This document shows, in pieces, positions 6,590 to 24,078 of a DNA stretch of 36,616 nt. This DNA is from Fibrobacterota bacterium (GTDB lineage: Bacteria > Fibrobacterota > Fibrobacteria > UBA11236): NCBI GenBank assembly GCA_023249635.1, contig JAHFCH010000003.1, positions 1-36,616 of the forward strand, written 5' to 3'. Positions within the stretch are counted from its first letter, which is position 1; each line of letters begins with the position of its first letter. Position numbers and translations under genes: made by a program. Under the pieces are notes generated by a model that saw nothing but the letters and a program-made list of their open reading frames with translations, searched no databases and had not been told where the DNA came from.

Positions 6590-6626
6590 CCTTGAAATAT
6601 CGGACTTTAACTCCGATATTTCAAGG
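6590..6626 (-). promoter_or_regulatory. Perfect 15-bp inverted repeat over the ATPase ribosome binding site
   Basis: Arms 6590-6604 and 6612-6626 are exact reverse complements with a 7-base spacer. On the minus strand the 3-prime arm ends in AAGG, the start of the ribosome binding site of the DUF4143 ATPase, only a few bases before its ATG at 6583. It could be an RNA hairpin that hides the ribosome binding site, or a dyad operator for a repressor. There is no T-run, so a plain terminator is unlikely. Confidence 0.8.
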
Positions 6627-6756: not shown

Positions 6757-6843
6757 TGGTGCCCGAGGGGAGAGTCGAACTCCCACGACCTTGCGATCAC
6801 AAGAACCTGAATCTTGCGTGTCTGCCAATTCCACCACCCGGGC
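6757..6843 (-). tRNA. tRNA-Leu (anticodon CAG)
   Basis: The minus strand folds as a class II tRNA with encoded CCA. The acceptor stem GCCCGGG pairs with CTCGGGC (one G-U). The D-arm contains GGTGG and AATTGGCAGA. The anticodon stem CAAGA/TCTTG encloses the loop TTCAGGT with anticodon CAG at 6807-6809. There is a long variable arm (GATC-GCAA-GGTC), and the T-arm is GGGAG-TTCGACT-CTCCC. It reads the Leu codon CUG, which is frequent in this GC-rich genome. A promoter with a consensus -35 box lies upstream. Confidence 0.97.
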
Positions 6844-18631: not shown

Positions 18632-18930
18632 GAAAGTAAATCCTGATTTCCGCAAGGCTTCCTGCAAGACTTCGGCCTGTTTCGAGGAGCCAGGGAGGCG
18701 GATCGAAATCCGCCTCCCTGGCCTGTTTGAATGGGCCGTTATTACCCGCGCAACGGACACCACTCGAGGGACCAATAAGATAAGATTTTGAATTCCGATT
18801 GCAAGCGAGGGGCCCTTTCCGTCGGGCTTTTTTCCCCTATTTTTACCCGATTTTCAGGATCCGTTACATTAGTCTAGATTTAGGCGCGCGGCAGGGACCG
18901 CAGCGAACCGTTCTTTAACCGAAAGTGTCC
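18632..18930. promoter_or_regulatory. Intergenic region with strong hairpin and terminator-like element
   Basis: No gene is seen between the divergent nuclease and rpiA starts. A perfect 15-bp GC-rich stem with a 4-base CGAA loop lies at 18689-18722. A terminator-like fold (18808-18831, stem with G-U pairs, T-run 18828-18833) comes about 100 bases before rpiA. Together they would suit a short plus-strand RNA, or leader attenuation of rpiA. No promoter with good boxes was identified. Confidence 0.4.
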
Positions 18931-21849: not shown

Positions 21850-21930
21850 AGGTTTAAGGTCTAAGGTCTAAGATTTAAGGTTCTGATTTTGTCCGATGCG
21901 GGGATCCCACCCACCTTAAACCTTAAACCT
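21850..21930. repeat. Heptamer palindrome E3
   Basis: The left arm (21850-21880) has TTTAAGG, TCTAAGG, TCTAAGA and TTTAAGG. The right arm (21914-21930) has two complementary units. A purine run (21840-21850) precedes it and a pyrimidine run follows. It lies immediately behind the stop codon of the HtrA-type gene. The same architecture is seen at 450-527 and 15973-16062, with different central sequences. Confidence 0.8.
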
Positions 21931-22112
21931 TCCCCTCCGTCATAATGTAATCTCTCCCTCCACACCTCCCCCCGTAACCCGCAAGCCACTCCCCCTCCCT
22001 CTCCGTCGCCGTACCGGCAATCCCCTCCCCCTCCCGGTAATTCCTTCCTCCATATCCCGCTACATCACTCTAACTTTTCCTCCAACCCGGCCCACTTGGG
22101 GCTTTTTCGCTG
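21931..22112. other. Pyrimidine-rich tract, GGA-rich on the minus strand
   Basis: No gene is seen. The plus strand is mostly C and T. Counting by eye, the minus strand has 17 GGA trinucleotides between 21931 and 22083, well above chance. One short hairpin with 6-bp arms (TACCGG and CCGGTA) around 22012-22038 has three of them in its loop. The region lies upstream of the sigma-54 flagellin promoter, so it could also hold activator binding sites. No promoter for a minus-strand RNA was recognised. Confidence 0.4.
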
Positions 22113-23802: not shown

Positions 23803-24078
23803 GACCGCTCGCGCGAGTGCAGTTGGCGCTCTCACTTCAGCACGTTTAATCAACACACGGTCGGGCGTCGGGCGTACGGCGCTGCGCGCCTAGGCGTCGG
23901 GCGTTAAGAAAGAAGAATTTATTTCTCTTTCTTAACGCCCGACGCCCGACGCCAAGGGGCGTAGCAATAAAACCAGCGGGCAGCCCGTACGCCAAACGCT
24001 ATGCCGCTCCAAGCGGAACCGCGTCTTTCCAGCACTCTTTTTCTAATGGGATCTTCGCTCAGAGCCGCGAAGCAACGC
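23803..24078. repeat. Intergenic region with long perfect hairpin (E4, GGGCGTC heptamers)
   Basis: A perfect 21-bp stem (23893-23913 with 23926-23946) encloses a 12-base AT-rich loop. The arms are built from heptamers of the type GGGCGTC (left) and CGCCCGA (right), and more heptamers flank them (23861-23880 and 23941-23953). The stem ends in an A/T-rich segment next to the loop. It lies 90 bases behind csrA, between convergent genes. It may terminate transcription in both directions. No gene is seen in the rest of the region. Confidence 0.75.

Follow-up and report, generated by a model that had tools for sequence, protein, structure and literature searches.

A candidate self-carried operator of 37 bp over the promoter of a PDC-S01 (AAA_14-DUF4143) ATPase gene

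The question raised by this locus is what a long inverted repeat does immediately before the start codon of a solitary DUF4143 ATPase gene. In the window (the whole 36,616-nucleotide stretch of a Fibrobacterota contig that was analysed), positions 6590-6626 hold a perfect 15-bp inverted repeat with a 7-nt spacer (minus strand, 6626->6590: CCTTGAAATATCGGA-gttaaag-TCCGATATTTCAAGG), exactly as an earlier sequence-only reading had described it. A repeat-finding tool extends the arms to 18 nt at 94% identity, and the 3' edge lies 6 nt upstream of the ATPase ATG (6583-6581). The SD-like AAGG was found to form the outer end of the 3' arm, so that the earlier placement of this arm in the ribosome binding site agrees with the window sequence. 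As RNA, the dyad is predicted to fold with -21.7 kcal/mol. In its own 6.75-Mb genome this exact pattern has a single occurrence, and no copy was found in viral contigs; an Rfam scan returned only the tRNA, plus sub-threshold chance hits. Because two other strong dyads are present in the window (18689-18722 and 23893-23946), the repeat alone is unremarkable there, and it is its family-wide position that is remarkable. The features of the locus are collected in Table 1.

Table 1. Features of the ATPase locus and of the proposed operator (window coordinates).
Feature	Position	Strand	Remarks
AAA_14-DUF4143 ATPase, 385 aa	5426..6583	-	AAA/STAND-like NTPase ~1-141, winged helix ~188-246, PD-(D/E)XK-like ~285-361; PADLOC PDC-S01 match
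37-bp bipartite inverted repeat, proposed operator	6590..6626	-	half-sites CCTTGAAATAT (6626-6616) and ATATTTCAAGG (6600-6590), inner symmetric triplets GGA/TCC, spacer
3' arm TCCGATATTTCAAGG	6590..6604	-	includes -10-like GATATT (6601-6596), 17 bp from the -35-like box; SD-like AAGG (6593-6590)
Central spacer GTTAAAG	6605..6611	-	GTATATA in a 72%-identical relative, arms kept (one arm mismatch)
5' arm CCTTGAAATATCGGA	6612..6626	-	includes -35-like TTGAAA (6624-6619)
tRNA-Leu(CAG)	6757..6843	-	same-strand neighbour; syntenic in same-genus genomes without the ATPase here

The encoded protein is a member of the PDC-S01 / AAA_14-DUF4143 family. It matches the Pfam models AAA_14 (1.2e-21, 77.5 bits; cut-off 27) and DUF4143 (1.1e-40, 139.5 bits; cut-off 28.1) as well as seven PADLOC PDC-S01 models (best 2.3e-82). 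The AlphaFold2 model (pLDDT 95) comprises an AAA/STAND-like domain, a winged helix and a PD-(D/E)XK-like domain. Among 58 sequences, G34 and K35, D81 and E82 (Walker A/B) as well as E290, E317, D319 and K334 of the PD-(D/E)XK motif are invariant, and E332 of the latter is nearly so. The fold matches were the archaeal PABY2304 (2qen), MalT, RuvB, Apaf-1 and Avs4, with only partial fold agreement; the best of them, MalT/STAND NTPases and PABY2304, differ from the window ATPase in their C-terminal domains and show a low identity of 14%. A sequence search of the PDB found no relative, and a search of IMG/VR no close viral relatives; 4 distant phage records were found. In one published account (PMC12988326), PDC-S01 ranks fourth in frequency among the defences of prokaryotes and is described as an ATPase fused to PD-(D/E)XK; most such candidates still await validation. 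The window ATPase shares both the models and this architecture, and we regard PDC-S01 as an abundant, candidate anti-phage defence gene. The genome of the window contains 25 DUF4143 matches, three of them on one 31-kb contig, and same-genus genomes contain 0-9 matches to the window ATPase, which suggests that the DUF4143 expansion is strain- or species-specific.

Dyads at the start of the gene are a property of the family. Start-region dyads scoring at least 10 were found in 40 of 123 family genes, compared with 4 of 141 controls; these genes were taken from the same loci and are GC-richer than the family starts. Such dyads occurred in 0.7% of dinucleotide shuffles, which preserve composition, in 0% of coding stretches, in 2% of the stretches after the stop and in 6.7% of those further upstream; the start-region dyads of the family exceed chance. 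In the clade nearest to the window ATPase (about 38% identity and above, many phyla), inverted half-sites CC[T/A]TGnAAAT are placed nearly always exactly 37 bp end to end. The comparison of homologous upstream regions that the sequence-only reading had proposed returned the half-site pair (score above 15) in 43 of 51 nearest-clade starts, but with interrupted pairing; it was present in 0 of 51 coding stretches and in 2 of 50 stretches after the stop, and these two may be the starts of the next tandem ATPase genes. No recognisable site was seen in 8 of the 51 near relatives. With a leave-one-out half-site model, 22 of 28 non-redundant near-clade genes were significant, 17 at exactly 37 bp and 21 at 36-38 bp, whereas the best half-site pairs of shuffled sequences were distributed evenly over 30-45 bp. 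Held-out plasmid homologues (Rhizobiaceae, Rhodobacterales, Sphingomonadales, Thioflavicoccus, Thermus HB8) carried the site in 18 of 18 cases, mostly from related Alphaproteobacteria and hence not 18 independent events; 17 measured 37 bp and one 38 bp, ending 0-1 nt before the ATG. Two-fold symmetric half-sites at a fixed spacing, as expected of an operator, are therefore present.

Other DUF4143 paralogues of the same genome also carry long, AT-rich dyads, which differ in sequence and lie at the start codon or across it, and more distant DUF4143 genes have other dyads in the same place. Other DUF4143 clades carry start dyads of their own, for example TCCAAAAT...ATTTTGGA or TTTGGGAGTT...AATTCCCAAA, some of which lie just upstream of a -10-like box and not over it. 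A divergent DUF4143-like ATPase gene (G000:C319) is preceded directly by a near-perfect dyad with 26-nt arms, the sequence of which is unrelated to the window dyad.

The sequence-only reading had explained the repeat as an mRNA leader hairpin that holds back translation by occluding the Shine-Dalgarno sequence. The window itself favours this, since its perfect stem includes the AAGG 6 nt before the ATG, and good folds (-15.6 and -16.4 kcal/mol) are also predicted for the two closest relatives. Most relatives, however, form weak predicted hairpins (-4 to -11 kcal/mol) while the half-sites and the 37-bp spacing are kept. In a column profile of 35 exact 37-bp sites, the outer blocks (positions +-12 to 18) are conserved and complementary, positions +-7 to 11 are mostly A/T and complementary in only 46-71%, positions +-4 to 6 vary but are 83-86% complementary (GGA/TCC or TCC/GGA in most sites), and the central positions +-1 to 3 are complementary in 34-46%. 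The inner triplets were perfectly matched in 22 of 41 sites, against a mean of 5 and a maximum of 12 in 5000 shuffles. A selected RNA stem would not skip positions +-7 to 11, and mismatches show no excess of G-U (25) over A-C (33). Conserved pairing of the kind expected of an SD-sequestering hairpin was thus not found. Nor was an SD at functional spacing in the stem a general feature: the 6 nt of the window contrast with 0-1 nt in all 18 plasmid homologues. The position of the AAGG reads CATGG in several relatives and lies 0-1 nt from the ATG in others, too close for an SD role, and the SD-like AAGG is just the end of the half-site. The four symmetric blocks are centred near -15, -5, +5 and +15, about 10 bp apart, which would place them on one helical face. 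The dyad is probably a docking site on DNA, and we consider an RNA hairpin that represses translation by covering the ribosome site very improbable.

The promoter-like elements point in the same direction. By comparison with the consensus only, the window shows TTGAAA-17-GATATT with one box per dyad arm; GATATT is a weak -10-like box, and the promoter pattern is clearer in the relatives. With start codons of the family picked by a simple rule, -10-like hexamers ending 5-8 nt before the start were found in 43% of the family genes and 5% of the controls, whereas SD-like motifs were found in 9% of the family starts and 34% of those of the controls. Because the boxes are so close to the start and SD motifs are rare, the transcripts are probably leaderless or nearly so, beginning with the ATG or just ahead of it, where the dyad has its 3' edge. 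With relatives that look leaderless and half-sites resembling -35 and -10 boxes, a hairpin would scarcely enter the mRNA. A transcript start within or downstream of the dyad, which the sequence-only reading had named as evidence against its hairpin, is suggested here by the promoter boxes. The natural reading of such dyads as RNA hairpins is probably wrong and is corrected here.

The site is coupled to the protein. The more similar the proteins, the more similar are their sites (Mantel r=-0.37 between site similarity and protein distance; 0 of 5000 permutations as strong), and distant paralogues in one genome share 7.7 of 16 half-site letters, compared with 8.9 in near relatives from different genomes. 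Winged helices of STAND proteins are often structural and not DNA-binding, and the co-variation does not assign site specificity to the winged helix, its partial correlation being near zero. Site similarity followed the AAA domain as well or better, so that common descent by itself could account for some of the coupling. Residues separating GGA from TCC sites are confounded by one clade.

The site also accompanies the gene. In one same-genus genome the flanking gene and the tRNA-Leu are 185 bp apart and the ATPase is absent; no target duplication was seen at the insertion. The 72%-identical relative occupies another genomic place; there the arms are kept but for one mismatch and the spacer is changed. 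In a third genome, of the same genus, a decayed ATPase copy has retained its site, with an identical T->C change in both arms. Judged from these comparisons, gene and site move together between genomes, across unrelated bacteria. In five genomes the 37-bp pattern (at most 1 mismatch) was found at 16 places, 9 of them at ATPase starts. Of two orphan sites that were examined, one (G014:C253:5075-5111) precedes a uvrB-like ORF and has no ATPase in its vicinity; the other, a perfect match to the pattern (G014:C70:79049-79085) with A5/T5 flanks between convergent genes, is probably a bidirectional terminator.

We propose that the dyad is a self-carried operator over the PDC-S01 promoter which serves autoregulation, the ATPase itself being its most likely binder, and regard this as the probable reading. 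A two-fold symmetric protein-binding site of 37 bp would span the promoter, with the -35-like box in its 5' half and the -10-like box in its 3' half, and would reach the start codon or stop a few bases short of it. The binder, a symmetric dimer that most likely consists of the ATPase, would contact the four blocks from one face of the helix and block RNA polymerase, so that the gene is kept low. If the ATPase were drawn to another place, as by foreign DNA or a nucleotide or infection signal, the promoter would open and give a leaderless or nearly leaderless ATPase mRNA. The sequences show the site, its fixed geometry and position, its coupling to the family, its co-variation with the protein and its mobility with the gene. 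From these features we infer binding by a protein, the ATPase as the ligand, repression and an inducing signal. Of the earlier suggestion that a solitary DUF4143 ATPase is under tight control, the general idea is still plausible and the wording that a repressor leaves fits the proposed operator, but the route through hairpin opening does not.

The same operator might be bound by an unrelated host regulator instead. Its geometry would suit any symmetric dimer and the co-variation does not single out the winged helix; yet gene and site move together through different phyla with different neighbours, sites of distant paralogues in one genome differ while resembling those of near relatives elsewhere, and few other 37-bp sites exist in the genomes. 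We consider a host regulator unlikely. A role in recombination, transposition or cleavage, with the repeat as an end or attachment site aiding gene movement or as a target cut by the PD-(D/E)XK domain, is improbable in our view. Empty sites and plasmid copies indicate a mobile gene, some neighbours are recombinases and the ATPase has a nuclease-like domain, but a second copy at the 3' end is missing (2/50), by which transposon ends were rejected, no target duplication was seen at the insertion, and the constant position over the promoter, at the start codon, speaks for regulation. Hardly credible is an intrinsic terminator of the upstream tRNA-Leu transcript: a strong stem does follow the tRNA on its own strand, at a distance of about 130 nt, but no T run comes after it (ATAACGATG) and relatives without an upstream tRNA have the site as well.

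The proposed operator resembles the promoter-region palindrome of defence loci that is bound and repressed by homodimers of CapW/BrxR, the WYL repressors of CBASS and BREX (PMC9122588), the defence locus being a candidate here. CapW/BrxR are encoded by a separate dedicated gene, whereas no such regulator gene is evident at the window locus, where the candidate for binding is the effector itself. In autoregulated toxin-antitoxin operons, palindromes overlap the promoter and the product represses its own synthesis. Unlike these, the window copy is a single gene with no antitoxin partner seen next to it. In Thermus thermophilus, TT_P0211 (AAA_14/DUF4143) was 6.6-fold up with a plasmid in an Argonaute-encoding strain (PMC4406477), a rise that is compatible with an inducible promoter but suggestive only. 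In the literature searched (papers on DUF4143, and the opening abstracts of papers on COG1373), no description of the control of the PDC-S01 family or of a cis-regulatory site was found, and a search for AAA_14 with palindromes gave only unrelated papers. Relative to PDC-S01 as described there, the self-carried 37-bp site would be a new part.

A defined 37-bp site predicts a binder, clade-specific operator sequences, leaderless mRNAs and low basal expression, and may provide a first handle on the DNA recognised by a PDC-S01 ATPase. It is conceivable, though rather doubtful, that the site is part of the defence and does more than housekeeping control: an ATPase-nuclease would sit on its own promoter, infection would draw off or modify the protein and thereby both arm it and induce its gene, and the inner triplets would serve as self-addresses. 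If so, one protein and one 37-bp site would form a complete, self-contained sensor, repressor and effector, and clade-specific inner triplets would prevent cross-regulation among the many paralogues of one genome.

Further repeats were observed in the window. The perfect GC-rich 15-bp dyad at 18689-18722, with a 4-nt loop, is probably a terminator. A large hairpin at 23861-23965 has GGCGTCGGGCGTTAAGAAAGAAGAAT arms (26 nt, 92%) with CGTCGGGCG repeats flanking. A short word (AAGGTTTAAGGTTTAAGG ... CCTTAAACCTTGAACCTTAAACC) occurs in inverted intergenic arrays at two places, 449-527 and 21850-21931.
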